Assembly: GCA_025929585.1 (NCBI GenBank)
Contig: JAICPY010000042.1
Span: forward strand, 1-32,668
Direction: 5' to 3'
Length of the DNA: 32,668 bases
DNA from: Steroidobacter sp.
Lineage (GTDB): Bacteria; Pseudomonadota; Gammaproteobacteria; Steroidobacterales; Steroidobacteraceae
Of the stretch, positions 6,931 to 32,668 are shown one piece after another (the first letter of the stretch is position 1; every line of letters starts with the position of its first letter). The notes under the pieces are model-generated. The model was given only the letters and a program-made list of their open reading frames with translations, made no database searches and had not been told where the DNA came from. The translations under genes were made by a program, and so were the position numbers.

Positions 6931-7125
6931 CGGGTGACGAGGTGCTGGATTCACTACGGTGAAAGTGATGACGTGATGAGGTGATAAAGTGATGACGACA
7001 GAGCCACAAAGCGCGGCCACCTTGAGGCAAGGTACGTCATCCGGTGCAATCTACTCGTAGCTCCTCATTCCGTCACCGCCTCTCGACTCTGGCCTTATCA
7101 CCTCATTACTTATCACCCCATCACT
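6931..7125. repeat. Inward-facing octad hairpin element A
   Basis: The left arm has four exact octads (GTGATGAC 6965, GTGATGAG 6973, GTGATAAA 6981, GTGATGAC 6989) and ends in core GACAGAGC (6997-7004). The right arm begins at core ACTCTGGC (7086-7093) and continues with CTTATCAC/CCCATCAC-type units to 7125, one of them seven bases long. Weaker units (GGTGACGA, GGTGCTGG) extend the left arm back to within a few bases of the sulfotransferase stop. The right arm ends seven bases before the ATG at 7133. The element occupies essentially the whole 203-base spacer, with a loop of about 81 bases. Confidence 0.8.
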
Positions 7126-7132
7126 TTTCCGC

Positions 7133-7846
7133 ATGCCCATTCACCTCGCTTGCGAAGCCAACCTTGCCCAGATTGCACAGCTGTATGCTCGAGTCGGGCG
7201 TGTGCACATCTGTCCTGCGCTCGATCCGCAAAGCGCCGAAGAAGCGTATCGCAGCTTGCAGCAAGAAGTACCTTGGCAGCTGCATCTAAACGATGGCGAG
7301 AAATCGTTCGACCTTGCGCAGGAACAAATAAGGGTGATTCCTGAAGCAACGCAAGTGATGTTGCACGAGCGAGTGCATGCGAATGCGCAGCAGGGATTCC
7401 AGTATCTGTTCGACAACTTTCCTCTGTCGGATGCGCATGCGTTGCAGCGCAATCTGGATTTGTACGCGATGCGTGTGTTCGAGTTCTTGAATTCGGAGCG
7501 CTTCCTGAATTTCGCGCGGCGGGCAACGGGACGGGCCGACATTGCTTTTGCCGATGCGCAGGCAACCGCGTATCGACCGGGGCATTTCTTGACTCAGCAT
7601 GATGACTCCGCCACGGGCAAGGAGCGGATCGCTGCGTATGTGCTGAACCTGACGCCTCGGTGGCACGCAGACTGGGGCGGAATTCTCAACTTCCTGGATG
7701 CGGACGGGCATGTGGCCGAAGGCTATACACCCGTATTCAATGCTCTGAATCTGTTCAAGGTCCCGCAGCCGCACACCGTCAGTTACGTGACGCCCTTTGC
7801 TCAGGGAATTCGTTACAGCATCACTGGTTGGCTGCGCGCGAAATGA
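7133..7846 (+). CDS. 2-oxoglutarate/Fe(II)-dependent oxygenase (prolyl-hydroxylase-like)
   Basis: Predicted non-haem iron dioxygenase of 237 residues that would hydroxylate a protein or peptide residue using 2-oxoglutarate and O2. The facial triad is visible: QHDDS gives H156 and D158, and PHTVSYV gives the distal H214. R227 in IRYSITGWL would bind 2-oxoglutarate. YRPGHFLTQHDD and the WGGILNFL strand fit the prolyl 4-hydroxylase/Ofd1-like group. No signal peptide. There is no Shine-Dalgarno sequence: the C-rich arm of the repeat element runs almost to the ATG. The stop overlaps the start of the next gene (ATGA), so the two oxygenases are translationally coupled. Function with the sulfotransferases (hydroxylate, then sulfate) is inference. 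Confidence 0.88.
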   Translation: MPIHLACEANLAQIAQLYARVGRVHICPALDPQSAEEAYRSLQQEVPWQLHLNDGEKSFDLAQEQIRVIPEATQVMLHERVHANAQQGFQYLFDNFPLSDAHALQRNLDLYAMRVFEFLNSERFLNFARRATGRADIAFADAQATAYRPGHFLTQHDDSATGKERIAAYVLNLTPRWHADWGGILNFLDADGHVAEGYTPVFNALNLFKVPQPHTVSYVTPFAQGIRYSITGWLRAK

Positions 7847-9657
7847 ACGAGCTGGAGCAGCAGTTGCAACAAGCGGCTCGCTTGCTCCAGGACAAGCGCA
7901 TCGCCGAAGCGGAAATGTTGTGTCGATCCGTGCTTGCACGAGCTCCGCTGCACGCGGATGCACTGCATCTGCTCGGCTTGGTGCGCAAACAAGCGGGGAG
8001 CCCTGCAGATGCCGAGATGCTCATGCGTCAGAGCATCCAGCTGCAGCCAAAGCGTGCCGACTTTCACGGTAATCTGGGCAACCTTCTACATGCTCAAAAG
8101 AGATCGCAGGAGGCTTGCGAGGTATATCGAATCGCCGTCGGTTTGGACCCGCGTCACGCTCTGGCGCATCTGGGGCTGGCGCGTGCGCTCAATGATCTTG
8201 AGAAGTTCACGCAAGCCGAAACTCAGTGCCGGATTCTGATCCGTTTACGGCCAAAGGATGCGCAAGCCTGGTCGACGCTCGCGAGTGCGCTGCGCGGACA
8301 GGCTCGCTTGAACGAAGCGGAAGACGCATATCGCCGCGCCGTTGCGCTTCAGCCTCAGTATGCCGCCGCGCACCACAATTTGGGCGCGTTGCTTGCCGAG
8401 ATGGATCGGGCCGAGGATGCGCTCGCAGAATTGGATCGCGCGCACGCGCTCGGGTTGATGACACGTGAGGCCGCGTTGAACCGCGGCCATGCGTTCCTGA
8501 AGTTATATCGACTAGAAGACGCAGAGCGTGAGTATCTGGCGGCCATCGGCTTGCAGCCGCAGGATGTCGATGCACACAGAAGCCTCGCACGCCTGCGCTT
8601 CATGACGGGCCATGCGCAGTTCGCGGGCGAGCTGTTGAAGGCTCTGGCGCAGCACCCCGACGCTATCGGCCTACACATGCTGTTCGTAGAGCTGATGCGC
8701 GATGCCGGTGACATTGCGCGCGCCGAAGAGGCGCTCCGCGCAATCATCGTGCGTTGGGGAAACGCGCCGATGCTGCATTCGGCCTTGTCATCGCTCCTGA
8801 TGCAAAGCGGACGGATCGAGGAAGCAGAGACGCAGGCCCGGCTCGCCGCCGCTGGCGCTCCAGATCATCCGGCCATCGTCGAAAACTTGATATCGGTCCA
8901 ATTGCTGCGAGCTCGGCCCGAAGAGGCGCTCGCTTGGATTCGCAAATTCCGATCTCGAGATCCGCTCGAGCAGCGATGGATTGCTTATGAAGCGACGGCC
9001 GCGCGTCTGCTCGGAGATTCGCTGTATGAAGAGCTTTATGACTACGATGCGTTGGTTCGCTCTTACGACGTGCAGCCGCCGAAGGGCTGGAATTCGATCT
9101 CCGAATTCAACGCCGAGCTGGAAGTCGTCCTGAACGCAAGGCACCGCTTTGCGAAGCATCCATTGGATCAAAGTTTGCGGCACGGCAGCCAGACTGCGCG
9201 CAGCTTGCTGGCGGATTCGGACCCGTTGATCAAAGCGATTCTGAAGCAGTTCGAGGAGCCGTTAGCCGACTACGCCGCGGCGCTTGAATCCAGCGAAACG
9301 CATCCGCTTGCATCGCGAAATCGAAGCCGCCCGCGCATCGATAAGTGTTGGTCGGTGCAGCTGCGCAAGGAGGGATTTCACGTCAATCACATCCACCCGC
9401 AGGGTTGGATCAGCTCGGCATATTACGTTGGCGTGCCTGCTGAAACGCAGGATGCGGCGGCGGCTTCCGGGTGGATCAAATTTGGCGAGCCGAAGTTGCC
9501 GATTCCAGGCTGCTCGCCCGAGCACCAATTACAGCCGCGTTCCGGCCGGCTCGTTTTGTTTCCTTCCTACATGTGGCATGGCACGACCGCCATCCACGGC
9601 CCCGAGCCTCGCACGACAATCGCGTTCGATGCGGTCCCGGAGGGAGAGAGAAAGTGA
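7843..9657 (+). CDS. TPR-fused putative 2-oxoglutarate/Fe(II) oxygenase
   Basis: 604 residues. Residues 1 to about 400 are tetratricopeptide repeats (for example ADALHLLGLVRKQAGSPADA and AAAHHNLGALLAEMDRAEDA). The C-terminal 200 residues resemble the putative 2OG-Fe(II) oxygenase family PF13759: FHVNHIHPQGWISSAYYV (H513, H516, H518), then SGRLVLFPSYMWHGTT with the distal His, then RTTIAFD with the cosubstrate Arg. The start is ATG 7843, overlapping the upstream stop by four bases; a longer open frame exists from 7660 but lies inside the upstream gene. The TGA stop lies in the first octad of repeat element B. TPR fusion here parallels the TPR-sulfotransferase at the other end of the block, suggesting both recognise a related substrate. 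Confidence 0.88.
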   Translation: MNELEQQLQQAARLLQDKRIAEAEMLCRSVLARAPLHADALHLLGLVRKQAGSPADAEMLMRQSIQLQPKRADFHGNLGNLLHAQKRSQEACEVYRIAVGLDPRHALAHLGLARALNDLEKFTQAETQCRILIRLRPKDAQAWSTLASALRGQARLNEAEDAYRRAVALQPQYAAAHHNLGALLAEMDRAEDALAELDRAHALGLMTREAALNRGHAFLKLYRLEDAEREYLAAIGLQPQDVDAHRSLARLRFMTGHAQFAGELLKALAQHPDAIGLHMLFVELMRDAGDIARAEEALRAIIVRWGNAPMLHSALSSLLMQSGRIEEAETQARLAAAGAPDHPAIVENLISVQLLRARPEEALAWIRKFRSRDPLEQRWIAYEATAARLLGDSLYEELYDYDALVRSYDVQPPKGWNSISEFNAELEVVLNARHRFAKHPLDQSLRHGSQTARSLLADSDPLIKAILKQFEEPLADYAAALESSETHPLASRNRSRPRIDKCWSVQLRKEGFHVNHIHPQGWISSAYYVGVPAETQDAAAASGWIKFGEPKLPIPGCSPEHQLQPRSGRLVLFPSYMWHGTTAIHGPEPRTTIAFDAVPEGERK

Positions 9658-9743
9658 TGAGGTGAGGAGGTGATAACGACAGAGCTCGGAAGGTTGCGTC
9701 CCGCTCTGTCGTTATCACTTCATCACCTTATCACCTCATCACT
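9653..9743. repeat. Inward-facing octad hairpin element B
   Basis: The left arm is GTGATGAG (9654), GTGAGGAG, GTGATAAC and core GACAGAGC (9678-9685). The loop is 17 bases. The right arm is core GCTCTGTC (9703-9710), then GTTATCAC, TTCATCAC, CTTATCAC and CTCATCAC (to 9742). That is three octads against four, plus a perfectly complementary core. Both convergent genes end inside it: the TGA at 9655-9657 and the opposite-strand TGA at 9739-9741 occupy the same position of mirror-image outermost units. It probably also acts as a two-way transcription terminator. Confidence 0.92.
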
Positions 9744-12442: not shown

Positions 12443-12910
12443 ATGAGAGAGTTCCGCGGGCGCCTAGCGCTTGTGCTGTTGCTGGCATCCCTTTCGGGTT
12501 GCAGTGCCTTTGTCCCCAAACTCGAAGCGCCGCGACTGATGCTCGTGAGCGCCGCGATGACCTCAGGCGATATGTTCAGCCAAACCTTTCTGGTTCGACT
12601 GCACGTTCAAAATCCGAACGATCGCGAACTGCCGGTGCGCGGCATCGACTATCAATTGTTCCTCGAGGGAGATAGCTTCGCCGAAGGCTTGAGCGAGAAA
12701 CCATTTGTCGTCCCCGCACAAGGCGAAACCGAATTCGACCTCACCGTGCGTACCAACTTCGTCAGCAGCATCGGCCGCCTGCTTTCGCGCCTGAATGGCA
12801 AGCAAAAAGTCGATTACGTGATCGAAGGAAAGGTGCTCACCGATATCGGGATGCTGAAGAAAATCCCGTTTCGCGAAAGCGGGGTGGTGGATTTGGCGAT
12901 GGTGAGATGA
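12443..12910 (+). CDS. LEA14-like lipoprotein (LEA_2 / WHy domain)
   Basis: About 155 residues. The lipoprotein signal ALVLLLASLSGCSAF has a canonical lipobox LSGC. The remainder has the LEA type 2 / WHy pattern: QTFLVRLHVQNPNDRELPVRGIDYQLFLEG, with the conserved NPN turn, then VPAQGETEFDLTVRTN. Members are linked to desiccation or stress protection, but the bacterial role is unclear. The start is ATG 12443 with AGAGG at 12432-12436; an upstream in-frame start at 12365 would bury the signal. The last codons and TGA run into repeat element E. Confidence 0.85.
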   Translation: MREFRGRLALVLLLASLSGCSAFVPKLEAPRLMLVSAAMTSGDMFSQTFLVRLHVQNPNDRELPVRGIDYQLFLEGDSFAEGLSEKPFVVPAQGETEFDLTVRTNFVSSIGRLLSRLNGKQKVDYVIEGKVLTDIGMLKKIPFRESGVVDLAMVR

Positions 12911-13010
12911 AGGTAAACGAGGTCTAGAGGTGTAACGTGTAGAGGTCAGATCGAACGAAGGTCTGCTGTATTTTCTGACCCGTCCACCTTACACATCCAA
13001 ACCCATTCAC
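12901..13010. repeat. Inward-facing octad hairpin element E
   Basis: Left units are GTCTAGAG (12922), GTGTAAC (7 bases), GTGTAGAG (12937) and core GTCAGATC (12945-12952), preceded by looser GTGAGATG/GTAAACGAG units that contain the lipoprotein stop. Right units are core TTTCTGAC (12972-12979), CCGTCCAC, CTTACAC, ATCCAAAC and CCATTCAC (to 13010); the last contains the glgA stop. The loop is about 19 bases. Both arms carry a 7-base unit at the matching place, second out from the core. The element fills the space between the two convergent genes. Confidence 0.82.
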
Positions 13011-14452
13011 GCGCGCAGAGCTTCATACATCCCCACATACTGCCGCGCCTGCTTCTCCCAAGAGAAATCTTGCGCCATTGCATTGCGGATCATCTGCGTC
13101 CACGCGTCGTGATCTTTGTAAAGGTCGAGGGCGGTGTGGATGGCCCAGCGCATACCATGGATGTCGAAGTCGTTGAAGACGATGCCGGTGCCTTGGCGAG
13201 TGGTTGGATCCCACATTTGAACTGAATCGGCTAGGCCGCCCGTCCTTCGGACGATGGGAATGGTGCCGTACTTCAGGCTGTACATCTGGTTCAAGCCGCA
13301 CGGCTCGTACATGGACGGCATGAGGAACATGTCGCTCGCTGCCTCGATGAGATGCGAGAGCTCATCGTGATAACCCCGATGAAACACGACGCGGTCGCGA
13401 AATCGACGCTGTAAGGCGGTGAAGAAACTCTCGTAATGCGGTTCCCCGCTACCGAGCGCGACAAAAGACACGTCGCGTGTCGCCAAGATCTCCGGCAAGG
13501 TGTCGAAGAGCAGATCGAATCCTTTCTGCACGGTCAACCGAGACACCAAACCGATCAGCGGTGCGGTATCTGCTGCCGTCAAATTGAGCCAATCGAGCAG
13601 ACCACGCTTGGTCGCCGCCTTCCCGGAAAGATCCTCAGGCGAGAAGTGATGCTTTAGATAACGATCCGTCGCAGGATTCCATTCGCGATAGTCGACGCCA
13701 TTGAGAATTCCAACCACGCCGTCACCACGCGCGAGCAAATCAGCATCCAATCCGTGTCCTCCGAGCGGCGTGCAGATCTCCTGAGCGTACGTTGGGCTGA
13801 CGGTCGTCACTCGATGCGCATTACGTACACCTTCGCGCAACCAATTGATGCTGCCGCCGGCGACTGTGAAAGGCGAAAGCAAGTGCCGCACCTCGCCGCC
13901 GACATCGAACACTGTGTGGGGAGGGAACACCCCTTGATAGCCGATGTTGTGGATCGACATGACGGAGCGCGCGCCTGAGAACAAGCGATCCCACGCATAG
14001 AGTGATTTCAGCATCACGGGGATCAAGCCCGTGTGCCAGTCGTTGCAATGAACGATGTCGGGTGCGAAGGCGAGCCGTTGACACGTCTCGAGAACAGCGC
14101 GCTGGAGAACCAAGAATCGCAGATGCTCATCGGGACCTTGCGTATAGATCGAGGGTCGGTCGTACGCTTCCGGGCAATGCACGAAGTACAACGGAACGCT
14201 CGAATCGGGTAGACGCGATTCAATGATTGAAAAACGATAAAAGTGGGGGCCAAGATGCAGTGGGACGCCTTGGACGGCGTCGACTTTATTCGCATTCGCC
14301 GCCGCGCTACCGATACTCGAATACAAAGGCATGAACACGCGCACGTCATGACCCAAGGCGTGCAGATGTTTCGGCAGAACACCCGCGACGTCCGCAAGCC
14401 CGCCGGTCTTGGCGAAGGGTGCAACTTCCGAGGCAACGAAACAGATACGCAT
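13007..14452 (-). CDS. glgA: Glycogen synthase (ADP-glucose type)
   Basis: GT5 glucosyltransferase that adds glucose from ADP-glucose to growing alpha-1,4-glucan. 481 residues, against 477 in E. coli. The N-terminal ADP-glucose motif KTGGLADV is at residues 15-22. Later come HCNDWHTGLIP, the linker region LTVQKGFDLL, and the C-terminal catalytic segment MFLMPSMYEPCGLNQMYSLKYGTIPIVRRTGGL. The start ATG 14452 is fixed by the conserved first strand (MRICFVASEVAPFAKTGG). It faces glgC and shares the storage neighbourhood with phaR. Its TGA lies in the outermost unit of element E. Confidence 0.97.
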   Translation of the reverse strand: MRICFVASEVAPFAKTGGLADVAGVLPKHLHALGHDVRVFMPLYSSIGSAAANANKVDAVQGVPLHLGPHFYRFSIIESRLPDSSVPLYFVHCPEAYDRPSIYTQGPDEHLRFLVLQRAVLETCQRLAFAPDIVHCNDWHTGLIPVMLKSLYAWDRLFSGARSVMSIHNIGYQGVFPPHTVFDVGGEVRHLLSPFTVAGGSINWLREGVRNAHRVTTVSPTYAQEICTPLGGHGLDADLLARGDGVVGILNGVDYREWNPATDRYLKHHFSPEDLSGKAATKRGLLDWLNLTAADTAPLIGLVSRLTVQKGFDLLFDTLPEILATRDVSFVALGSGEPHYESFFTALQRRFRDRVVFHRGYHDELSHLIEAASDMFLMPSMYEPCGLNQMYSLKYGTIPIVRRTGGLADSVQMWDPTTRQGTGIVFNDFDIHGMRWAIHTALDLYKDHDAWTQMIRNAMAQDFSWEKQARQYVGMYEALRA

Positions 14453-15045: not shown

Positions 15046-15225
15046 GAAGCGGTTAGCGGTTAGCGGTTAGCGGTTAGTTCAGAGATGGCCGCCGCGATTG
15101 AGTAGCCAAACGCGCACGCGTTCTTCGCCCGAACTTATCCGCTCTTGCTCGTCCTCAGTTGCGTGTCGATTCAGCGTGGCTTACGCCTCGCGATTCTGAA
15201 CTAACCGCTAACCGCTAACCGCTTC
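15046..15225. repeat. Inward-facing heptad hairpin element C
   Basis: The left arm has four perfect GCGGTTA heptads (15049-15076) and core GTTCAGA. The right arm has core TCTGAAC (15195-15201) and three perfect TAACCGC heptads (15202-15222). GAAGC/GCTTC close the outer ends. Apart from the one extra copy the arms are exactly complementary over 31 bases. The loop is about 110 bases. This is the cleanest heptad element in the window. Confidence 0.93.
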
Positions 15226-15311: not shown

Positions 15312-15408
15312 TCGTGACTCTCGGGTGGCGGGTAGAAGAGGGCGGCTTGCGAAGTTGAAGGGTTGAGGCCGGCTTGAATCTGATTATCTTTCTACCCGTG
15401 AGTCACGA
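15312..15408. repeat. Inward-facing hairpin element M
   Basis: The left arm begins TCGTGACTC (15312-15320) and ends CGGGTAGAA. The right arm (15390-15408) reads, on the other strand, TCGTGACTC-A-CGGGTAGAA. The left arm differs only by seven extra bases in the middle, one unit's worth (TCGGGTGG against A). The loop is about 52 bases. Confidence 0.7.
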
Positions 15409-21067: not shown

Positions 21068-22564
21068 ATGGCCCAAAGCCCATACCAGCAACTCGAGCAA
21101 GAATTTCGCCGCGTGCACGCTTTTCGCACCGCGGCGTCGATTCTGCGATGGGACTCGGCCGTGATGATGCCGCGCGGCAGCTCGGACCTTCGAGGCGAGC
21201 AGCTCGCGGCGCTCGAGACGGAGGCGCACGCGCTAGTGACGTCGCCTCGCGTGTCTCGGTTGCTGGACCGAGCCGATGCGAATGCCCAGGGATTGGAGGA
21301 TTGGCAGGTCGCGAACCTTCGAGAAATGCGCCGCGAGCGCGACCACGCGATCGCGACTCCGCACAATCTGGTTTCCCGGCTTGCAAAGGCGACTTCTCGC
21401 GCAGAAGTTCGCTGGCTGGAAGCCAAACAGAAAAGCGATTTCTCGCTGTTCGCGCCTCATCTCGAAGAGGTCGTCAACCTGACACGCAACAAGGCTTCAT
21501 TTCTGGGAAAAGCCTTGAACTTGACGCCCTATGACGCGCTCATCGATGAGTTCAGTCCGGGACTCACCACCAAAGAGATCGACTCGATCTTCACGACACT
21601 TGGCCGGCGTCTTCCTGGATTGATTCAGGACGTCATCGATGGCCAAGCCGCGCGCCCGCCTCTGGATTTGTCGGGGCGCATTACGCCGTCGAAGCAGCGG
21701 CAGATCGCAGTGGACATCATGAAAACGATCGGCTTTCCTTTCGACCGAGGCCGGATCGATGAAAGCGAACACCCCTTCACCGGCGGAGCCCCGGGCGACA
21801 TTCGGATCACCACGCGTTTTATACCGACAGACCCACTCAGCGGACTGATGGGGGTGCTCCATGAAACCGGACATGCGATGTACGACCTCGGTTTGCCCGA
21901 GGCTTGGCGAGGCCAGCCTGTTGGACGCGACCGGGGAATGGCAGTGCAGGAGAGTCAGTCCCTGCTGTTGGAGATGTTCATCTGTCGCAATCGGCCTTTC
22001 CTGCGCTATCTGCGTCCGCTGCTCGAGAAGATCGGTGGTGTCAGCGGGCCCGAATGGGAGGTCGAGAACCTCTATCGAGTGCTCACGCGCGTTCGACGCA
22101 GCCTGATTCGAGTCGATGCCGATGAGATCACCTACACGATGCATATCATCTTGCGGCACGAACTGGAGAAGGAGCTCTTGTTGGGTGAATTGAAGATCAA
22201 GGACCTCCCTGAAGCTTGGAACTCTCGCATTCACGACCGCCTCGGCGTGCGGCCCTCGAACGATGCGGAAGGCTGCTTACAAGACGTGCACTGGGCAGTC
22301 GGATCCTTTGGTTATTTCCCTTCCTATTCGATCGGCGCTGTCATCGCAGCCCAGCTCTACGAAAGCCTGCGCAGCGACCGACCGGAGCTAGATGAGGAGA
22401 TTGCGGCTGGACATTTCGCCGGCTTGTTCGACTGGCTACGCCAGAACATCTACCGCCACGGCGCAATGTTGAGCACCCCCGAGCTCATCCAGAACGCCAC
22501 AGGCAAACCCCTAAGCGCCGCGGCCTGGGTGCGGTATGCGGAGGGGAAGTATCTTGCGGACTAG
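21068..22564 (+). CDS. M32 family metallocarboxypeptidase (Taq-type)
   Basis: Zinc or cobalt carboxypeptidase that removes C-terminal residues from peptides in the cytoplasm. 498 residues, the normal M32 length. The HEXXH metal site is LHETGHAMYDLG (H265, E266, H269), and the third ligand is expected in AVQESQSLLLEM. Further M32 signatures are DEFSPGLTTKEID, GDIRITTRF and the C-terminal YFPSYSIGAVIAAQLY. The start ATG 21068 has no strong Shine-Dalgarno sequence. The TAG stop lies three bases before repeat element H. About 190 bases separate it from the efflux operon; I see no terminator there. Confidence 0.95.
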   Translation: MAQSPYQQLEQEFRRVHAFRTAASILRWDSAVMMPRGSSDLRGEQLAALETEAHALVTSPRVSRLLDRADANAQGLEDWQVANLREMRRERDHAIATPHNLVSRLAKATSRAEVRWLEAKQKSDFSLFAPHLEEVVNLTRNKASFLGKALNLTPYDALIDEFSPGLTTKEIDSIFTTLGRRLPGLIQDVIDGQAARPPLDLSGRITPSKQRQIAVDIMKTIGFPFDRGRIDESEHPFTGGAPGDIRITTRFIPTDPLSGLMGVLHETGHAMYDLGLPEAWRGQPVGRDRGMAVQESQSLLLEMFICRNRPFLRYLRPLLEKIGGVSGPEWEVENLYRVLTRVRRSLIRVDADEITYTMHIILRHELEKELLLGELKIKDLPEAWNSRIHDRLGVRPSNDAEGCLQDVHWAVGSFGYFPSYSIGAVIAAQLYESLRSDRPELDEEIAAGHFAGLFDWLRQNIYRHGAMLSTPELIQNATGKPLSAAAWVRYAEGKYLAD

Positions 22565-22566
22565 AC

Positions 22567-22690
22567 GGCGATAGGGGATAGGAAGAGTCGGAAAGTCTAA
22601 TCGCGCACTTACTCGCTTGCTCACTGGCTAATCTCTATTCACTATCGCCACCCTATCGCCAATCCCCTATCCCCTATCGCCTTCTATCCT
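22567..22690. repeat. Inward-facing heptad hairpin element H
   Basis: The left arm has GCGATAG (22568) and GGGATAG (22575). The right arm, from 22642 to the ttcA start, has repeated CTATCGC/CTATCCC units (22642, 22653, 22667, 22674) plus CTTCTAT. Sixteen bases match perfectly (22567-22582 with 22666-22681). The right arm is about twice as long as the left. The loop is about 60 bases, and the outermost right unit abuts the ATG of ttcA. The inner core is less clear than in other elements. Confidence 0.82.
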
Positions 22691-23521
22691 ATGTCCGCCA
22701 TCCCCATCCCTCTCTCCAATAACTTCAGGCGGCTGCAAGCACGCCTGCGTGGGCTTGTCGGCAAGGCGATCGAAGATTTCCGCATGATCGAGGACGGCGA
22801 TCGTGTGATGGTGTGTCTATCGGGCGGCAAGGATTCCTACACGCTTCTCGACATCTTGATGTCCTTGCAGCGAAGCGCGCCGATCAAATTTGAGCTTGTT
22901 GCTGTCAATCTAGACCAGAAGCAACCGGGGTTTCCTGAGCACATCCTTCCCGAGTATTTGACTGCGCTCGGGGTGCCATTTCAGATCATCGAGCAGGACA
23001 CGTACAGCGTCGTAAAGCGAGTCATCCCGGAAGGCAAGACGATGTGCGGCTTGTGTTCCCGCATGCGCCGTGGAGCGCTGTATCGCTATGCGGCCGAGAA
23101 CGGCATCACGAAGATTGCACTCGGCCATCATCGAGACGACATCATCGAAACGCTATTCTTGAACATGTTCTTCGGTGGCAAGCTCAAGGCGATGCCGCCG
23201 AAACTGAAATCCGAGGATGGCCGCCACATCGTCATCCGTCCACTTGCCTATGTTGGCGAGCAGGAGATCGAGCGCTACGCGCGCGCCCGCGAATTTCCGC
23301 TCATCCCGTGTTCGCTCTGCGGCTCGCAGGAAAATATGCAGCGCATGGAAATCAAGAAGATGCTGCACGAATGGGAAAAGCAACACCCCGGTCGCACCGA
23401 GACAATTTTCTCGAGCATGTGCAATGTGGTGGCGTCGCATCTGGCGGATGCGCAGAGCTTCGATTTTGCGTCACTGAAAGCGACAGCGGAAGCGCACGAT
23501 CCAATCGATGAGGACGTGTAG
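22691..23521 (+). CDS. ttcA: tRNA 2-thiocytidine(32) synthetase TtcA
   Basis: ATP-dependent, iron-sulfur enzyme that thiolates cytidine 32 of certain tRNAs. 276 residues. The PP-loop SGGKDS is at 44-49. The CxxC pair [11 protein letters not shown] gives C119 and C122, with a further cysteine pair in [13 protein letters not shown] (C207, C210); these match the cluster-binding cysteines of the family. [28 protein letters not shown] is highly conserved. There is no Shine-Dalgarno sequence: the start follows the C-rich arm of element H. The TAG stop is inside the first octad (GTGTAGAG) of element D, so both ends of this gene are framed by repeat elements. Confidence 0.97.
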
Positions 23522-23609
23522 AGGTGCAGACGTGTAGATGTCAGACCGAGCCTGTATCCTTTCTGACCTTCGCACCTCCGCACGTCCACACCTCTACACC
23601 TCAACACGC
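23512..23609. repeat. Inward-facing octad hairpin element D
   Basis: Left units are GTGTAGAG (23516), GTGCAGAC, GTGTAGAT and core GTCAGACC (23540-23547). The loop is 12 bases. Right units are core TTTCTGAC (23560-23567), CTTCGCAC, CTCCGCAC, GTCCACAC, CTCTACAC and CTCAACAC (to 23607). That is three octads against five. The left outer unit contains the ttcA stop and the right outer unit ends two bases before the next ATG. It fills the spacer completely and resembles element E in units and core. Confidence 0.92.
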
Positions 23610-26906: not shown

Positions 26907-26919
26907 CAGCAACGCTGTC
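26901..26919. repeat. Short hairpin repeat, copy 1
   Basis: CGATGACAGCAACGCTGTC contains a 6-3-6 inverted repeat (GACAGC, AAC, GCTGTC) and overlaps the plsB stop codon. An identical 19-base copy is at 27040-27058, and both are followed by a GGTGC motif. It may act as a terminator-like hairpin for plsB. Confidence 0.7.
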
Positions 26920-26925
26920 GCAGGT

Positions 26926-27007
26926 GCGTCATCCTTGCGCAGGCGAGGAGCTATCTTCCTCTGTGTCTTGAAAGCTCAGATGGGCCCTCGCCTACGCAAG
27001 GGCGACG
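26926..27007. repeat. REPIN-like inverted pair R1/R2
   Basis: R1 (26926-26958) contains CATCCTTGCGCAGGCGAGGA. R2 (26974-27007) is the same type of unit in the opposite orientation, with CCTTGCGTAGGCGAGGG on the minus strand. The two imperfect palindromes face each other across about 15 bases. This is the layout of a REPIN or other intergenic palindromic doublet, related in style to the CGTCATCCCCGCG-type repeats common in proteobacteria. Confidence 0.7.
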
Positions 27008-27039
27008 AGGGAATGTTTGGAGGGTTGTTCTCGCTTATG

Positions 27040-27058
27040 CGATGACAGCAACGCTGTC
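27040..27058. repeat. Short hairpin repeat, copy 2
   Basis: Exact 19-base copy of 26901-26919, with the same orientation and hairpin. Here it is not attached to a gene end, so it appears to travel with the R1/R2 pair rather than to belong to plsB. Confidence 0.7.
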
Positions 27059-27165
27059 AGGGGTGCCTGGACTTCCCCCCGCTTCACGACACTGCTCTAA
27101 CAGAGATCCGGGCAGCCGCAATCTCCGATAGCGGTGCTCTCAAACGCGCAACACCGATCCATCTC

Positions 27166-27199
27166 CGTCGCCCTTGCGTAGGCGAGGGCCCATCTTAAG
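27166..27199. repeat. REPIN-like single unit R3
   Basis: The first 30 bases (27166-27195) are the exact reverse complement of 26978-27007 in R2. It is a solitary copy in the R1 orientation, near the downstream end of the repeat-rich spacer. Confidence 0.75.
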
Positions 27200-27294
27200 A
27201 ACGCAGCAGCAAGACTACTGCTATGAGCCTGAGCCTTGGCGCTCCGGCACGTAGGTATTCGGGGCAGTAGTGTGCATGGACGAGCATGTTGCGT

Positions 27295-27394
27295 GGGTGA
27301 TGAAATGATGAGGTGATAAAGTCATGAAGTCAGGATCGAACTTGCGATCCGATGTTCCCTCGCCATCACCTTAGCACTGCATCACTCTCATCAC
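27295..27394. repeat. Inward-facing octad hairpin element F
   Basis: Left units are GTGATGAA (27297), ATGATGAG, GTGATAAA, GTCATGAA and core GTCAGGAT (27329-27336). A 6-6-6 stem (GGATCG 27333-27338, CGATCC 27345-27350) forms the tip. Right units are GTTCCCTC, GCCATCAC, CTTAGCACT, GCATCACT and CTCATCAC (to 27394). The right arm has diverged. Units resemble those of elements A and B. Unlike most elements, it leaves room for a ribosome-binding site before pldA. Confidence 0.78.
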
Positions 27395-27412
27395 GATAAT
27401 AGGGAGACGCGC

Positions 27413-28636
27413 ATGCGCGAAGCACGACGCCGGCCCTGCGTCTATTTCAACCATATCCTTGTTCTCCTGGTGGCGCTCGCTTGTACGCCGAGCTACGCCA
27501 GCATCGTTCTGTCGGTAGCGGATCCGCGGGTGGAGGCTGGAGGTGAGGTTACGCTCGAGCTACTGATTGCCAACGAAAGCGATGAGATCGCAGTCACCGA
27601 GGTGTCCACGCCGTTGCACATCCGATTGGAAACGGCAGACGCGGTCAGCATCCTGTCGTTTGAACCTGATCGAAGCGGGGAGCTTGCGGTTGATCCGCAT
27701 ACGTTCGTGAAAATCACGCTGAAAGGCCAAATGCCTGCGGACGCAGAAGGGATCGCGACGCTTGCGCCCACAGGTCTCACGGCCAATTCAATTTTAATTC
27801 AGTTCGCGGAGCCGAGCTCCACGAGTAGCGCGGTTGCACGACAAGAACCGCCGAGCGCCGAGAGGGACGAGGACAGCGGCACGATTCAGCGCTCTACGCT
27901 CATCGATAAACCGCCGCCGCTTGCGGTATCGGTTTACGAGCCGGTGTATTTCCTGATCGGTGGAGATAACGGTCTGAATGCCAAGTTTCAGATCAGCCTT
28001 CGCTATCGACTCTTCGATGGTCGAGGCAAGCTCGCGGAAAGATTGCCTTGGATCGACGATATTTACCTCTCGTATTCGCAGACCTCGTTGTGGGATCTGG
28101 ATGACCTCTCAAAGCCCTTCCGCGATTCGAGCTATCGACCGAGGCTGTTCTTCTCGAATTACGATCTCGGCCGCTTGCTCGACGGGCGGTTGCGCTTAGG
28201 TATCGAGGCCGGCGTTGGGCATGAATCGAACGGTAAGGAGGGCGATGAGTCGCGCAGTTTCAACATGCTCTATGCCCGACCGGTTCTCACCTTTGGTGAT
28301 CCAGATGGCTTACGTGCATATGCCGCACCATTGATCCACAACTACATCTCGGACGACGAGAATCCGAATATTCATCATTATCGGGGTTACGTCGACTGGC
28401 TTTTCGGTGTCGGCAGCAAAGGCGGATTGGATTTCTCCGCGACGATACGCAAAGGTACTCGCAGCGACTACGGCAGCGTGGAGCTCAACGCATCGTATCC
28501 CTTGTCCAAGCTCAGCGGCGGAGATCTCACCGGCTGGCTCATGCTGCAATACTTTGCCGGCTACGGTGAAAGCCTATTGGACTTTGATCGGAAGTTGGAT
28601 GCGCAACTCAGGTTGGGAATAGCGATCGCGCTGTGA
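27413..28636 (+). CDS. pldA: Outer-membrane phospholipase A (OMPLA)
   Basis: Calcium-dependent outer-membrane phospholipase, active as a dimer on surface phospholipids when the membrane is disturbed. 407 residues, longer than E. coli PldA (289) because of an N-terminal extension. The signal peptide spans residues 1 to about 29 (ILVLLVALACTPSYAS). An immunoglobulin-like beta domain (about 30-125) and a low-complexity linker (about 130-160) follow, then the 12-strand barrel. The catalytic residues are visible: H270 and S272 in GHESNGKEG, and N284 in RSFN, with the same spacing as H142/S144/N156 in E. coli. ATG 27413 is supported by AGGGAG at 27401. The TGA stop falls in a GTGAGGAG octad of element N. 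Confidence 0.92.
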   Translation: MREARRRPCVYFNHILVLLVALACTPSYASIVLSVADPRVEAGGEVTLELLIANESDEIAVTEVSTPLHIRLETADAVSILSFEPDRSGELAVDPHTFVKITLKGQMPADAEGIATLAPTGLTANSILIQFAEPSSTSSAVARQEPPSAERDEDSGTIQRSTLIDKPPPLAVSVYEPVYFLIGGDNGLNAKFQISLRYRLFDGRGKLAERLPWIDDIYLSYSQTSLWDLDDLSKPFRDSSYRPRLFFSNYDLGRLLDGRLRLGIEAGVGHESNGKEGDESRSFNMLYARPVLTFGDPDGLRAYAAPLIHNYISDDENPNIHHYRGYVDWLFGVGSKGGLDFSATIRKGTRSDYGSVELNASYPLSKLSGGDLTGWLMLQYFAGYGESLLDFDRKLDAQLRLGIAIAL

Positions 28637-28707
28637 GGAGCGCGAGTGACTAAGTGCCCGGGGCGGCGAGGTGGCGACATCAGAGATCGACGGCGGAGCT
28701 TCGTTAC
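28633..28707. repeat. Decayed octad element N
   Basis: GTGAGGAG (28633-28640) contains the pldA stop. GTGACTAA, GTGCCCGG, GGCGGCGA, GGTGGCGA and a CATCAGAG-type core follow to about 28685. The right side has only GGCGGAGC (28692) and TTCGTTAC (28700), and complementarity is partial. A small perfect stem (GCCGC-GAA-GCGGC, 28711-28723) then leads to the arfB start. The CAGAG core and inward GTGA units place it in the same family. Confidence 0.5.
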
Positions 28708-28734
28708 TAAGCCGCGAAGCGGCACAATAGCCGG

Positions 28735-29142
28735 ATGAACGCAGTGCCGCCGCCGTCTGCCCTGACATACCGCTTTATCCGCTCGGGCGGACCCGGCGGA
28801 CAAAACGTCAATAAAGTCGCGAGCGCGGTTCAGCTATTTTGCGATCTGAAGGAATGGCCGGACTTACCGGACAGAATCCGAGATCGTCTGCGCCGGCTCG
28901 CTGGACGGCGTCTGACGGACGACGATGTGATAGTCATCGCTGCCCAACGATTTCGCACGCAAGAACATAACAAGCGCGATGCGCTCGAGCGTTTGCAGAC
29001 TATGGTGGACGAAGCCTCCATCGAGCCAAAGGTCCGGCGAGCCACACGACCTACGCGGGCATCGAAGGAGAGAAGGCTCGAGGGAAAGCAGCAGCGTTCT
29101 CAGGTGAAGAGAGGAAGGGGGAAGGTGACACGCTTTGAGTAG
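28735..29142 (+). CDS. arfB: Alternative ribosome-rescue factor ArfB (peptidyl-tRNA hydrolase)
   Basis: Releases the nascent chain from ribosomes stalled on mRNAs without a stop codon. 135 residues, matching the family. The catalytic GGQ motif is RSGGPGGQNVNKVAS with Q23 as the third residue. The C-terminal tail is strongly basic (RRATRPTRASKERRLEGKQQ), as required to enter the empty mRNA channel. There is no Shine-Dalgarno sequence. The TAG stop lies in GTAGCGTC (29139-29146), whose exact complement holds the stop of the convergent mscS-like gene. A rescue factor of non-stop ribosomes amid stop-codon-rich repeats is a suggestive but unproven coincidence. Confidence 0.95.
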   Translation: MNAVPPPSALTYRFIRSGGPGGQNVNKVASAVQLFCDLKEWPDLPDRIRDRLRRLAGRRLTDDDVIVIAAQRFRTQEHNKRDALERLQTMVDEASIEPKVRRATRPTRASKERRLEGKQQRSQVKRGRGKVTRFE

Positions 29143-29258
29143 CGTCGTGACGGGGTGCACTGAGTCAACGTGACGAAGTCACGAGGTGACGAAGTCAGAG
29201 CGTTCCGCGCGATTTCTTTCTCTGACGTCGTCACTTCGTCACAGCCTTTAGACGCTAC
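29139..29258. repeat. Inward-facing octad hairpin element G
   Basis: Left units are GTAGCGTC (29139), GTGACGGG, GTGCACTGA (9), GTCAAC (6), GTGACGAA (29170), GTCACGAG, GTGACGAA and core GTCAGAGC (29194-29201). The loop is 17 bases. Right units are core TCTCTGAC (29219-29226), GTCGTCAC, TTCGTCAC, AGCCTTTA and GACGCTAC (29251-29258). The inner 23 bases match with three differences. The outermost units are exact complements, and each contains the TAG stop of its convergent gene. Confidence 0.9.
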
Positions 29259-30604
29259 GCATCCGGCGCCACCGCCTCATCACCGTCTGCCGTCCGCCGT
29301 CCACCTTTCACCGGCTGCTTCATTTCAAACAGCACTTCGCGTTGCGTGATCGGGATGGTGATGCCGTTTTCTTTGAACAGGCGCCAAATGATGCGGTTGA
29401 CGTCCGAGCGAACGTTGTTCACGCCTTCTTGCGGATCGGCGATCCAGAATCGGAGCTCCATATCGAAGCCGTATTCGTTGAAGCCCATCAGGCGTGAAAC
29501 GGCAGGCGGATCTTTCAGAATGCGTTTATGGTTTTCGGCAGCTTCAAGCAGTACCGCGAGCGCTCTCTCGGGATCGTCTTTGTAACTGACGCGCACCGGC
29601 AGTTTCAGACGTACGCGTGGATCGGTATAACTCCAGTTGATTACCGAGTTCGTAATCAGATTTTGATTCGGAACCAGCGTCTCGACGCCATCGCGATCCC
29701 GGACGACCACGTAACGACCGCGCAATTCCTGAACCCAACCAAATCCTTCAGTACTCGTGCCTGTCGTGCCCGTGAAGCTGATGACATCCCCAGGTTTGAT
29801 CGAGCGATCCATCAGGAGCACGAAGCCGCTGATGAAGTTCGCGACGATCGCTTGCAAGCCGAAGCCGAGGCCGACACCGATCGCACCGGTCAACACGTTC
29901 AGTGTGGTTAGATCCAGTCCGGTCGCGTTCAGGCCCAGCAGAATCGACAATGCGATCAGGAAGGTTTGCGTGAACTTGGCGATGCCGATGCGCATGCTCA
30001 GCGCCAAGCCTTGCATCGCCATCAGACGCCGCTCGACCCAGCGGGCGATCCACACCGCGATCAGAATGAAGGCGCCGACAGTGAACAGAATCTTCAGTAC
30101 CGACCACAGCGTGATGCGAGTTTTGGTCGTCCTGATACCGACGCTATCGAGGGCTTGTACCAGCGGATCGAACCATCCGAGCACATGCAGAGCGAGTACC
30201 GCCCAGATTACGAACGTGATCGCGTTACCCCAACCTTTGGTTCGATCTCCGAGCGATAGGCGAACCAGGTAAACACCGACACGAATCAGCAGCAGCAACC
30301 CAGCGAGCGTGATCGCGTGATCGACGACCGCGCTGTCTGTTTTCAGCGCGTGCAGGACTCCGCCGAACGCGGCAATCAGCACCGTAGCCGTTACGTGCGG
30401 GCTCGCAATCAAAAAAGCTTCTGTCACTCGCGCCCTGAACCCTTGTTCGACGAGCGCCGTACGGACGCGCTCCGAGGTGCGGATCTGCCGTGCAGCCCAC
30501 CAGGCAATCAGAATAGCGATCAGTATCGCCGCGACTTGCACCAGCGACTGCGGAGTGAGTAATGCGTCCAGCTGGCTGATGGCGTTGCGCAGCAGTTCAG
30601 GCAT
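29255..30604 (-). CDS. MscS-type mechanosensitive channel family protein
   Basis: 449 residues, longer than E. coli MscS (286). Several N-terminal transmembrane helices (about 15-35, 65-90, 95-115, 130-150, 165-190) precede the pore-lining helix and beta domain. The MscS signature is GAIGVGLGFGLQAIVANFISGFVLLMDRSIKPGDVISF. The pore helix is Gly/Ala-rich (VLTGAIGVGLGFGLQ). The C-terminal alpha-beta domain ends at about 430 and is followed by a short polar tail. It would relieve osmotic pressure. Start ATG 30604, with no obvious Shine-Dalgarno sequence, 63 bases after the DUF465 gene on the same strand, so the two may share a message. Confidence 0.92.
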   Translation of the reverse strand: MPELLRNAISQLDALLTPQSLVQVAAILIAILIAWWAARQIRTSERVRTALVEQGFRARVTEAFLIASPHVTATVLIAAFGGVLHALKTDSAVVDHAITLAGLLLLIRVGVYLVRLSLGDRTKGWGNAITFVIWAVLALHVLGWFDPLVQALDSVGIRTTKTRITLWSVLKILFTVGAFILIAVWIARWVERRLMAMQGLALSMRIGIAKFTQTFLIALSILLGLNATGLDLTTLNVLTGAIGVGLGFGLQAIVANFISGFVLLMDRSIKPGDVISFTGTTGTSTEGFGWVQELRGRYVVVRDRDGVETLVPNQNLITNSVINWSYTDPRVRLKLPVRVSYKDDPERALAVLLEAAENHKRILKDPPAVSRLMGFNEYGFDMELRFWIADPQEGVNNVRSDVNRIIWRLFKENGITIPITQREVLFEMKQPVKGGRRTADGDEAVAPDA

Positions 30605-30667
30605 AAGGCATCGGCGAGGAATGAAGCCCGTAAGGGCGGTCGCGATTGAGTTCTGGTTTTAGTGCGC

Positions 30668-30892
30668 TCACGCGTTCAAGTCCGGAATCAGCTCGCTTTC
30701 CAGGCGTGCGATCTGATCCTTGAGCATGAGCTTGCGTTTCTTGAGCCGGCGCAGTTGAACCTCGTTCACATATAAGTCCATTTGCAGCCGATGGATGACA
30801 TCGTCCAGGTCGCGGTGCTCGATTCTGAGTTCCCGCAGGCGCTCCAAGCGTTGGAACGTTTTTGTCTCGACGTTGTTGTCCGATTCGGTCAT
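30668..30892 (-). CDS. DUF465 (YdcH-like) small coiled-coil protein
   Basis: 74 residues, almost wholly helical and highly charged, with the DUF465 pattern LRELRIEHRDLDDVIHRL and then RRLKKRKLMLKDQIARLE. This family is widespread in proteobacteria with no assigned function. It lies just upstream of the mscS-like gene on the same strand and is probably co-transcribed with it. Confidence 0.88.
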   Translation of the reverse strand: MTESDNNVETKTFQRLERLRELRIEHRDLDDVIHRLQMDLYVNEVQLRRLKKRKLMLKDQIARLESELIPDLNA

Positions 30893-30985
30893 GGGGTCGG
30901 TACTTTACCGCAAGAGCACAGGTGCGTCCGCAGTCCGTGATACGGTCGGGCTGTATCCCAAGCTTGAATGAGGTCATGGCTGGGC

Positions 30986-31020
30986 TTGCCAACACTCATC
31001 CGATGAGCTGCGATGGGCAA
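30986..31020. other. Nested stem-loop in the DUF3301-DUF465 spacer
   Basis: CTCATC-C-GATGAG (30995-31007) is a 6-1-6 palindrome enclosed by TTGCC (30986-30990) and GGCAA (31016-31020). Further small stems (GCCTCG 31078-31083 with CGAGGC 31095-31100) occur in this 242-base spacer. It could be a structured untranslated region. No T-run follows on either strand. Confidence 0.35.
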
Positions 31021-31134
31021 AGGCCTTTCAGGCCCCGGTGCGAGGACAGCCTTGAGATCTTAATGGCTACGTTTTTTGCCTCGCATTAGACGATCGAGGC
31101 AGAACGCGGTACATGAAAGCACCGCTAACAGGCC

Positions 31135-31599
31135 CTAGTCTGGCGGCGGAGGTGAGGAGTCCGCCGGCTTATCGCTCTGCGCGGACTCATTCGGCGGCCT
31201 TTCCGGACCCATCCGATTTCTCCAGTCCTCGATGCGCAGTACCTGCGCGGGTTCCGCGCGCCTCGCGGGCGGTCTATCGGGCATGCGCTGGTCATCCTGA
31301 GCGTAACCGACGGTTTCTACCGTCCTTGCGCTCACCACGATGAATCCTTGACGGCGCTCGATGCTGTTCGCCGTGTAATCGAATACATAGGTGCGCCGCA
31401 GGACCAGCCGCCCGCCGCTTCGGCCCAGAGCGATGCGCGCGAAAGCGACCGTGCCATCCAGAAACTGCAATGAAAGTCCCTCGCAGGCTTCGATCGCCGC
31501 TGCATTCGCGATTTCGCGCGCCGCCAAGCTGTCCTGCCAAAACCAAAAGGTCGCGCCAGCTAGACACAGAAGGAGAAGAGAGGTCCAGTCGAGGTACAT
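31135..31599 (-). CDS. DUF3301 domain membrane-anchored protein
   Basis: 154 residues. A single N-terminal membrane helix (MYLDWTSLLLLCLAGATFWFWQ) is followed by the DUF3301 core (REIANAAAIEACEGLSLQFLDGTVAFARI and RTYVFDYTANSIERRQGFIVV). The tail is long, polar and Pro-rich (about 100-154) and probably disordered. Function unknown. Its start faces repeat element I, and its leader is CTAACTCCCCC-rich with no Shine-Dalgarno sequence. The family is typical of gammaproteobacteria, supporting the taxonomic guess. Confidence 0.83.
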   Translation of the reverse strand: MYLDWTSLLLLCLAGATFWFWQDSLAAREIANAAAIEACEGLSLQFLDGTVAFARIALGRSGGRLVLRRTYVFDYTANSIERRQGFIVVSARTVETVGYAQDDQRMPDRPPARRAEPAQVLRIEDWRNRMGPERPPNESAQSDKPADSSPPPPD

Positions 31600-31612
31600 G
31601 GGGGAGTTAGAT

Positions 31613-31755
31613 GAGTCCGTAGTCCGCAGTCCGCAGTCTGCAGCCAGATAAGGTTAAGTCCGCGAGCTGGCAGTCTACCTTGGGGGCGAACTGCATCATC
31701 GCGACATCAGGCCCGCCGCTCTGGCTACGGACTACAGACTGAGGACTGTAGACTC
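31613..31755. repeat. Inward-facing heptad hairpin element I
   Basis: The left arm is five consecutive heptads: AGTCCGT (31614), AGTCCGC, AGTCCGC, AGTCTGC and core AGCCAGA (31642-31648). The right arm is core TCTGGCT (31720-31726), then ACGGACT, ACAGACT, GAGGACT and GTAGACT (to 31754). The arms are both 36 bases including an outer G, and match at 28 positions. Seven of the eight differences are transitions. The loop is 71 bases. Confidence 0.88.
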
Positions 31756-31763
31756 GCACAACC

Positions 31764-32456
31764 ATGGCTGATACTTCCCCAACCTCACCTCATTGGCCCT
31801 CCATCGACCTCGTCCTGCTCGATATGGACGGCACGCTGCTGGACTTGCACTTCGATAATCATTTTTGGCTGGAGGTGATTCCGCAGCGCTATGCGAAGCT
31901 GCATCGGATTACGCTCGAGCGGGCGCGAGAGCTTCTCGATCCGCGGTTCGCGGCGAAGCAGGGGACACTCGACTGGTATTGCGTCGATTTTTGGACTCGC
32001 GAGCTGTCGCTGAACGTCGCGGAGCTCAAGCGCGAGCTGAGCGAGCACGTGCGCTTTTTGCCTGGGGCCGAGCGCTTTCTACAAGCACTCAGAGACCGCG
32101 GCTTGCGCACCGCGTTGGTGACGAATGCGCATCAAGAAAGCCTGGCTGTGAAGGCAAAACAAACGGATCTGATCCGTTATTTCGATCATGTCGTGAGCTC
32201 CCACCGCTATGGCGTCCCAAAGGAGCACCCCGAATTCTGGCAAGCGCTGCAAGCGGAGCTAGAGTTCGAGCCGGCGCGCACATTGTTCGTCGATGACAGC
32301 ATCGCCGTGCTGCGTGCCGCGCGTAACTATGGGATTGCACAGATCTTCGCGATCACACATCCGGATTCCACTCAGCAGGGCAGAATCGTCGAGGAGTTTC
32401 CAGCGGTGCGTTCAGTAATCGATTTATTAGGAGTGACGGTGACCGGTGACGGGTAA
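31764..32456 (+). CDS. yrfG: HAD-superfamily GMP/IMP nucleotidase
   Basis: Dephosphorylates GMP and IMP; homologous to E. coli YrfG. 230 residues. HAD motif I is LVLLDMDGTLLDLHFDN (D20 nucleophile, D22). The family segment FWLEVIPQRYAKLHRI comes next, with GTLDWYCVDFW in the cap, then motif II VTNAHQES, motif III around VPKEHPEFW, and motif IV FVDDSIAVLRAARNYGI. The start is ATG 31764, with no Shine-Dalgarno sequence, ten bases after element I. The last residues VTVTGDG are encoded by the first units of element K and the TAA lies in GGGTAAG, so the repeat supplies the C-terminus. Confidence 0.94.
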   Translation: MADTSPTSPHWPSIDLVLLDMDGTLLDLHFDNHFWLEVIPQRYAKLHRITLERARELLDPRFAAKQGTLDWYCVDFWTRELSLNVAELKRELSEHVRFLPGAERFLQALRDRGLRTALVTNAHQESLAVKAKQTDLIRYFDHVVSSHRYGVPKEHPEFWQALQAELEFEPARTLFVDDSIAVLRAARNYGIAQIFAITHPDSTQQGRIVEEFPAVRSVIDLLGVTVTGDG

Positions 32457-32668
32457 GAATGTCGATTGTGCGTGTCGCGACGTGGCTCGAACATTTACGT
32501 CCCGTATCCAAGGATGGCCATTTGAATACGCGTGGCTCTCCGAAACGGTCTGGCCGTCGGAGCTAACACTTGACAGACTGAAAGCAGGAAACGAAAACTC
32601 TTGCCCGTCACCCGTCACCCGTCACCCGTCACCCGTCACCCGTCACCCGTCACCCGTCACCCGTCACC
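32432..32668. repeat. Inward-facing heptad element K with expanded right array (runs off the window)
   Basis: The left arm is GTGACG, GTGACCG and GTGACGG plus core-like GTAAGAAT (from 32433). It overlaps the last codons of the nucleotidase gene. The right arm begins CTTGC (32600-32604) and continues with nine perfect CCCGTCA heptads (32604-32666) and two more bases at the window edge. The array probably continues. The loop is about 140 bases and contains no gene I can support. Confidence 0.88.

Follow-up and report, generated by a model that had tools for sequence, protein, structure and literature searches.

Several systems of short repeats have been described that resemble, each in part, the elements reported here. 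Repetitive extragenic palindromic (REP) sequences and REPINs, which go with a RAYT gene, are dispersed intergenic repeats of 20-40 nt that form inverted pairs and reach hundreds of copies, and REPs are not known to contain heptads. The cyanobacterial STRR heptanucleotide repeats are dispersed tandem arrays of heptads that are not known to have a paired inverted layout. Foldback transposons of Drosophila, which are much longer, carry inverted ends in which short tandem repeats flank a variable middle, and they produce target duplications. Heptamer repeats have been interpreted as simple repeats that form quadruplexes or as slippage products. We describe here inverted tandem arrays of heptads and octads in the gene spacers of a 32,668-nt contig of a Steroidobacter sp. 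(JAICPY010000042.1, assembly GCA_025929585.1; hereafter the window) and of further DNA from the same genome. These arms are mostly convergent pairs of one sequence family, set around a loop that is not shared between copies, and many of them begin at a stop codon or directly downstream of one. We propose, tentatively and with somewhat less than even confidence, that they are dispersed repeats of a foldback-like kind placed at the ends of genes.

The closest described system is that of the GGGAATC heptamers of Xanthomonas, for which 70 and 75 convergent pairs were reported, near stop codons, with four units as the commonest size and rarely between divergent genes (Rehm et al., 2015; PMC4692102). 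In the available part of that paper, the GGGAATC and GGGGA(C/T)T repeats of Xanthomonas and Nostoc represent one unit type that is read as G-quadruplex; the Xanthomonas repeats are mostly intergenic, are found on the coding strand no more than 50 bp from stop codons, and in their majority have the same neighbouring genes in two species, with wide variation in length and sequence (PMC4692102). The elements of the window are of this same kind and are common in their genome. The initial annotation of the window knew of no named family with these properties, which the Xanthomonas heptamers contradict as far as their description is available; its guess that similar arrays may exist in xanthomonad-like genomes was a good one. 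A second comparison is offered by the TAACTGA repeats of Beggiatoaceae, intergenic heptads that are present many times per genome and patchily across phyla (MacGregor, 2015; PMC4679880). They differ from the arrays described here in being direct, mostly placed just before start codons and of one unit, with a single indirect repeat reported in the part of the paper at hand. Many coexisting families, octads, dispersal at the level of the arm and turnover of families found no report in the literature searched, which leaves most subscription journals outside; a literature search by the repeat letters gave no bacterial paper among the matches listed.

Results

The genome to which the window belongs, as contig C162, comprises 5.13 Mb in 297 contigs; it falls into one genus group with Povalibacter uvarum, and its genus includes 13 other genomes. 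In the following, G-numbers denote genomes, with G000 for that of the window, and L-numbers sampled stretches. A first sample of G000 comprised the window and 20 stretches (414 kb), and 20 stretches more enlarged it to 806 kb with 657 spacers, those above 700 bp or below -20 bp being dropped. Genes were called with our own hexamer caller, and one gene of the window (28735-29142) was added by hand. Inverted repeats were regarded as strong at a score of at least 13, and gapless ones were counted at a score of at least 16.

The pattern of inverted tandem arrays is confirmed to lie far above chance. Gapless inverted repeats numbered 83 in 414 kb and 0 in Markov shuffles, and strong inverted repeats occupied 142 of the 657 spacers compared with 2/657 after shuffling. 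Intergenic tandem arrays peak at periods 7 and 8: for periods 5, 6, 7, 8 and 9 we counted 1, 3, 79, 15 and 3 in 414 kb (2, 1, 0, 0 and 0 in shuffles), while period 4 was no higher than shuffled DNA (27 vs 27). Per Mb, coding DNA is about seventy times poorer in period-7 arrays than intergenic DNA. A scan with eleven unit families, restricted to the 486 of 657 spacers of at least 40 bp and requiring no inverted repeat, recovered 299 arrays against 7 in shuffles. The octad repeat CGCAGCGG counts as a family among the 142 spacers and was excluded from the array scan because its loops are shared between copies.

Adjacent arrays face each other, with 104 inward-facing pairs against 2 outward-facing ones. 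Both sides belong to one family in 93 of the 104 inward pairs, where family frequencies predict 13%, an agreement that is biased upward since we compiled the unit families from the same data; the remaining 11 are mixed. The inverted-repeat score is 20.2 in native pairs against 7.0 for arms of different families, and the modal array has four units (138/299). Among spacers of at least 40 bp, inverted repeats lie in 46/90 convergent, 85/292 tandem and 11/104 divergent spacers (enrichment over divergent ones p 6e-10 for convergent and 1e-4 for tandem spacers). Arrays that read away from a gene 3' end (n=187) include or overlap the stop codon in 53 cases and start within 15 nt after it in 91 (together 144/187), with 43 farther away. 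Hence the sites cluster at gene 3' ends and shun divergent spacers. In convergent pairing (104 vs 2), stop proximity, avoidance of divergent spacers and four-unit mode the arrays thus match the Xanthomonas repeats, as far as the available part of that report describes them. The contigs of the first 20 stretches were chosen because most of their number had come up in a CGGTTAG search, which makes the extrapolation to some 660 pairs genome-wide rough.

About ten unit families recur in the 806 kb, and eight of these comprise between 20 and 61 arrays each. The initial annotation had stated that the unit sequence differs between elements; several units do exist, but they fall into these few families, one of which has 55 genome copies of its arm. 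Unlike in Xanthomonas, the GGGAATC unit makes up only 3 of 299 arrays here. About ten unit types per genome, octads, dispersal of whole arms, an inner CAGA/AAGA end, stops on the inward strand and family turnover likewise set this genome apart from the Xanthomonas repeats as described in the part of the paper available.

The structure of the arm could be resolved for two families, GATAGSG and TAGGGGG. In both, arms are built as a constant string of about 35 nt, in which the units keep a set order and the inner end is CAGA/AAGA, and in these families the spreading unit is the arm, not the heptad. GATAGSG arms carry two-base linkers that are ordered from the outside, most commonly GC, GG, CG and GG at units 1-4. 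The TAGGGGG arm, which contains an odd unit TAATGAT and ends in YMAGA, has 55 genome copies at up to 3 mismatches in 26 (reversed control 0). From 30 of the loci with these copies and 7 earlier stretches, 22 two-armed elements were assembled, and their arms are about 89% conserved across 33 positions. More generally, the motif [CA]AGA (positions -5 to +10) occurs at the inner end of 163/299 arrays, at the outer end of 48 and, read on the other strand, at the outer end of 11; for CAGA alone the array ends give 105 vs 11. It is present in 10 of 11 families, the exception being GGGAATC with its 3 arrays, none of which has the motif, and in the distant genome G423 it was not clear at the four GGGAATC loci read.

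Units might also be sites for a DNA- or RNA-binding protein, four per arm, with a selected core of 4-6 bases, free linkers and different families serving different proteins. Neighbouring units indeed combine positions of 85-100% conservation with 1-3 variable ones, and the four-unit mode and the common inner end agree with such clusters. However, the fixed unit order and the near-identical arms of 35 nt indicate copying, and a swap of family on both sides of a spacer is hard to reach by point mutation, so that we regard binding-site clusters as a doubtful explanation.

Loops behave differently from arms. Of the 59 loops of same-family pairs, 56 had no further match within the 806 kb and 3 had one; in an earlier comparison 10/43 had a match, mostly owing to the CGCAGCGG repeat and nested arrays. 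The loops of the 22 TAGGGGG elements (35-133 nt) are no more alike than shuffled DNA, with a mean pairwise score of 13.2 vs 12.4 over 231 pairs and maxima of 23 and 24. The loop 15082-15195 of the window is single copy in the whole G000 genome and gave one weak match in five relatives (G013, p 0.028). Between orthologous spacers of G000 and G007, loops are alike only in the sole same-family case (p 0.033, the lowest in 7 tests, followed by 0.077). The CGCAGCGG octad repeat (L023 10110-10228, L030 16129-16304, L034 15850-15970, L191 19523) has inverted ends and, unlike the heptad families, some similar loops, with likeness of up to 92% over 76 nt between some copies; it looks like a separate, MITE-like element (miniature inverted-repeat transposable element).

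We also considered that the arrays are REPIN-type elements moved by a RAYT, a Y1 transposase, or MITEs. Short dispersed intergenic arms in inverted pairs fit such elements, and Y1_Tnp matches were found in G000 and G008. No Y1_Tnp match was obtained in G007 (75% complete) or G004 (91% complete), and six of twelve Y1_Tnp loci were read, none of which is flanked by repeats of these families. The Y1_Tnp gene of G000 has another inverted repeat, CTGATCGTGCA, at its flanks. For MITEs, shared loops (absent in 56/59) and target duplication (0/22) are missing. The arrays thus resemble REPINs as inverted doublets of 20-40-nt dispersed repeats and differ in showing no link to a RAYT. As to the imperfect palindrome that each REP forms, consensus arms of 9 families fold better than shuffles in 4 and no better in 5. 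RAYT was set aside for want of a correlation with the arrays and for the different flanking repeat in G000, and we consider mobilization as REPINs or MITEs quite unlikely. At that G000 gene (L208 856-1321 and 2743-3453), inverted pairs CTGATCGTGCA..AAGCGGTG with 32-nt loops stand on both sides, an arrangement that would resemble a RAYT with its own REPIN. A short period-7 array, of no family found here, lies beside the Y1_Tnp gene of G008 (L209 2057).

Templated repeat addition to both ends of a break, by a telomerase-like or reverse transcriptase-like enzyme, would leave inward arms of one family around random filler and hence account for one family on both sides, the inward direction, unrelated loops and the lack of target duplication. 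G008 (98% complete) carries arrays without any RVT_1 match, RVT_1 also occurs in array-poor genomes, and ordered unlike units require a template of about 35 nt. Such an origin is therefore disfavoured and in our view highly improbable. With RVT_1 absent in G008 and Y1_Tnp patchy, no dedicated enzyme is indicated.

The initial annotation had proposed that the two arms of one element evolve together by hairpin-templated repair and slippage. As a control, left arms were combined with right arms taken from different elements within one family; the native partner ranked at percentile 0.50 (standard error 0.03, n=92), its outer flanks at 0.48 (n=92), and unit by unit it ranked at 0.515 and 0.496 (n=92 each). 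Genome-wide the TAGGGGG family gave 0.55 (standard error 0.04, n=22). The difference in unit number was no smaller in native pairs (0.93) than in the control (0.79). Partner arms thus share the family and not the details, because native partners rank no closer than the arms of other elements; the earlier statement that the arms of one element agree holds at the level of family only. Consistent with repair are the predominance of one-family pairs, a private sequence common to both arms in a few elements (GTCGTG in L028, ATTGAAGATATAGAA in L203) and a lean of GATAGSG towards native-partner likeness (p 0.088; r 0.38, n=25). The longest arms read, in L072 (contig C111 of G000, about 48300-48450), speak against it: about a dozen GGGAATC units on the left and about a dozen GGGAGTC units on the right differ by one base between the arms, each of which is internally uniform, as if homogenised separately. 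The 11 mixed-family pairs point the same way. Co-evolution through the hairpin is rejected as the main process and, as a general account, is very unlikely.

Two syntenic blocks were compared across sister species. The closest relative, G007, has 86% amino-acid identity over 1968 positions. Arrays occupy both genomes at 7 spacers, G000 only at 2, G007 only at 0 and neither at 7 (p 0.003), a test that overlooks arrays seen by eye (L040 5425 in G000 and G007, 13577 in G000, 6353 in G004, 16788 in G008 and G013); adding L040 5425 and 13577 changes the counts to 8, 3, 0 and 5, in the same direction and weaker. Pooled over G007, G008 and G004, both are occupied at 14, G000 only at 14, the other only at 3 and neither at 26 (p 0.001). 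In co-occupied comparisons, as read from the occupancy table, the family is the same in 2/16 (G007 1/7, G008 1/4, G004 0/3, G013 0/1, G002 0/1), about chance given that G000 frequencies give 0.13. Sister species therefore tend to keep the site and not the family, and the initial claim of an architecture conserved while its sequence changes is borne out. Spacers with period-7/8 arrays number 62/239 in G000, 25/237 in G008, 6/19 in G007 and 3/30 in G004; the seven other genomes sampled have between 0 and 2. G013 groups with G007 yet has arrays in only 2/65 spacers, so that loss of arrays is possible.

A contig search for GTTGACRGTTGACRGYCAGA that reached beyond the genus returned 58 loci, 38 in the metagenome-assembled genome (MAG) G007, 2 in P. 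uvarum and 18 in other records that include Acidobacteria, Gemmatimonadetes, Aminicenantes, cyanobacteria and Bacteroidota. A convergent partner within 260 nt accompanied the match in 36/50 cases in the G007 MAG, 2/2 in P. uvarum and 6/17 of the remaining usable matches (Acidobacteria 4, Gemmatimonadetes 1 and Bacteroidales 1); the control side gave 0. These 6 partners outside the genus all lack a TCTG/TCTT end, and the CAGA end of the first arm is no evidence here because CAGA was part of the query. GTTGACA arrays also occur in Microcoleus records. Beside a gene start of P. uvarum (L118, 4631 region), a long GTTGACG array and a short same-family partner face each other, a candidate for length variation between strains.

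Location at 3' ends raises the question of transcript function. The arrays might be transcription terminators or stems that protect RNA, and besides their position and their presence in about half of the convergent spacers (46/90), the RNA folds agree with this: four of five pieces fold strongly (z -3.1 to -10.5), and the fifth, cut before its right arm, gave z +0.6. T-rich tails stand at 39/186 outer ends, about twice the background of 10% at randomly drawn spacer positions. A GC stem followed by a T run was not in excess (20 vs 17.8, standard deviation 4.8) in the scanned part of the window, 12800-32668, where long elements exceed the loop limit of the scan. Strong terminator-like hairpins occur in 3/59 loops vs 1.2 shuffled, and the two between convergent genes show loops that carry a strong terminator-like hairpin of their own. 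As termination also leaves heptads and families unexplained, we consider it unlikely as the reason for the arrays.

For the Xanthomonas repeats, quadruplex-forming simple repeats grown by polymerase slippage were proposed. A G-rich inward strand in most families, the four-unit mode and clear slippage in some arms (L072) would suit this view. However, four GGG tracts, the potential for a G-quadruplex, occur in only 15/299 arrays, a further difference from Xanthomonas, and unlike units stand in fixed order. Families without G tracts share placement, pairing and four-unit size, and therefore the quadruplex is not the common cause; for most families here it is contradicted, which makes it a very remote explanation.

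The inward strand is also rich in stop codons. At least one frame is closed within 24 nt in 238 of 247 arrays of at least 21 nt, compared with 55 on the opposite strand, 175 in shuffled arms and 109 in shuffled tiled units. All three frames are closed in 124/247 on the inward strand, 12 on the opposite strand, 3 in shuffled arms and 102 in shuffled tiled units.

Within the window, 21 spacers are at least 40 bp long. The strict test was passed by 7 and a looser one by three, and 1 element was recognised by eye. The thirteen lettered elements cannot be matched one by one because the initial annotation gives no coordinates per element; spacers 14453-14568 and 28637-28734, inside its range, showed no element in the occupancy test. 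The elements are as follows.

6962..7127 (arms about 6962-7003 and 7087-7127; strict, spacer 6930-7132): two-armed, octad GTGATGAR; inverted repeat 15.5, period 8; tandem genes on either side.
9653..9743 (strict, spacer 9658-9738): two-armed, octad GTGATGAR; convergent genes, both neighbours' stop codons within the arms; RNA fold z -10.5.
12921..13004 (looser, spacer 12911-13006): weak two-armed, octad GTGTAGAS; convergent genes; inverted repeat 12.5, below the threshold of 13.
15046..15225 (arms 15046-15083 and 15195-15225; strict, spacer 15034-15532): two-armed, heptad CGGTTAG; divergent spacer; inner ends TTCAGA / TCTGAA.
15314..15406 (by eye only): possible degenerate element, GTGACTC / CGGGTAG units; similar arms at L025 10650 and L191 18776.
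22562..22686 (strict, spacer 22565-22690): two-armed, heptad GATAGSG; its first three bases are the stop codon of the upstream gene.
23513..23607 (strict, spacer 23522-23609): two-armed, octad GTGTAGAS; the left arm contains the upstream gene's stop codon (23519-23521).
27296..27395 (looser, period-8 array): element of octad GTGATGAR; the left array (27296-27332) was detected, the right one (about 27364-27395) recognised by eye.
29170..29242 (strict, spacer 29143-29254): two-armed, octad GTGACGAR; convergent genes; inner GTCAGAG / CTCTGAC.
31613..31755 (strict, spacer 31600-31763): two-armed, heptad GTCYRCA; divergent spacer; inner CCAGA / TCTGG.
32433..32668 (looser, window edge): heptad GTGACGG element; right arm of about nine CCCGTCA units, left of about three.

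The hand-added open reading frame 28735-29142, with GPGGQNVNK near its start, putatively encodes an ArfB-type ribosome rescue factor. Rfam gave 0 matches at gathering score in the window. A perfect 30-bp inverted pair that is not a heptad array, AGATGGGCCCTCGCCTACGCAAGGGCGACG, lies at 26978-27007 and 27166-27195, with a near copy at L042 16656-16729 of the same genome. Another inverted repeat, with GGCCTGTTAACACTCATT and loops of 222-224 nt, occurs in two species of the genus (L198 12849; L055 7420-7711 in G003).

Discussion

How might such elements arise? In the foldback-like reading each family would have expanded by copying of arms, not loops, into many spacers, and afterwards each arm may have mutated and slipped alone, without correction from arm to arm. 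That the native partner is no closer than other arms fits an expansion burst followed by independent decay. The 3'-end sites would persist because an insert is tolerated there. With a stop on the inward strand, a period of 7 or 8 would place stops in successive frames, so that about three units would suffice to close a gene reading in from either side, and a strong stem is predicted to form in the transcript where the gene ends. Successive families may enter and leave the same permissive spacers, by which the layout would outlast the sequence. Short-tandem inverted ends and variable middles are shared with the Drosophila foldback transposons, which differ in their target duplications.

Several observations weigh against this reading. 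We found no empty site within one species, no target duplication (0/22 among the TAGGGGG elements, where it was sought) and no enzyme, and mobility is therefore only inferred. Lone arrays occupy 68 spacers. A first arm comparison gave higher likeness within than between elements in 7/7 families, with arms that had been cut at their best self-match. Signs on the origin of the loop point both ways: the terminator-like hairpins inside two convergent-gene loops hint at native spacer, while spacers of about 10 bp in G001, G011 and G012 at site 22565, where G000 carries an element, hint that the loop arrived together with the element. Closure of all three frames is a consequence of the period, since shuffled tiled units give nearly as many cases (102 vs 124). 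The presence of stops on the inward strand is enriched, but counted by family there are about eleven cases, so the evidence is moderate, and the sister-species families GGGGCTC and GGGCCTG show no stop by eye.

A bolder version of the foldback-like reading is possible, if unlikely: a bacterial foldback class that copies only arms of about 35 nt. Its putative machinery would recognise the arm with its CAGA/AAGA inner end and place it, oppositely oriented, at the two edges of a spacer, with a new loop each time, and gene ends would be recolonised repeatedly by new families. The convergent GTTGACR arrays of other phyla would then point to a widespread process.

In the resolved families, the arm as the spreading unit and the independent decay of partner arms recast the heptamer repeats. 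Why heptamers, why paired and why at stop codons is an old puzzle, and it is made here into testable claims, for which Povalibacter uvarum DSM 26723 is available as an array-bearing cultured strain.

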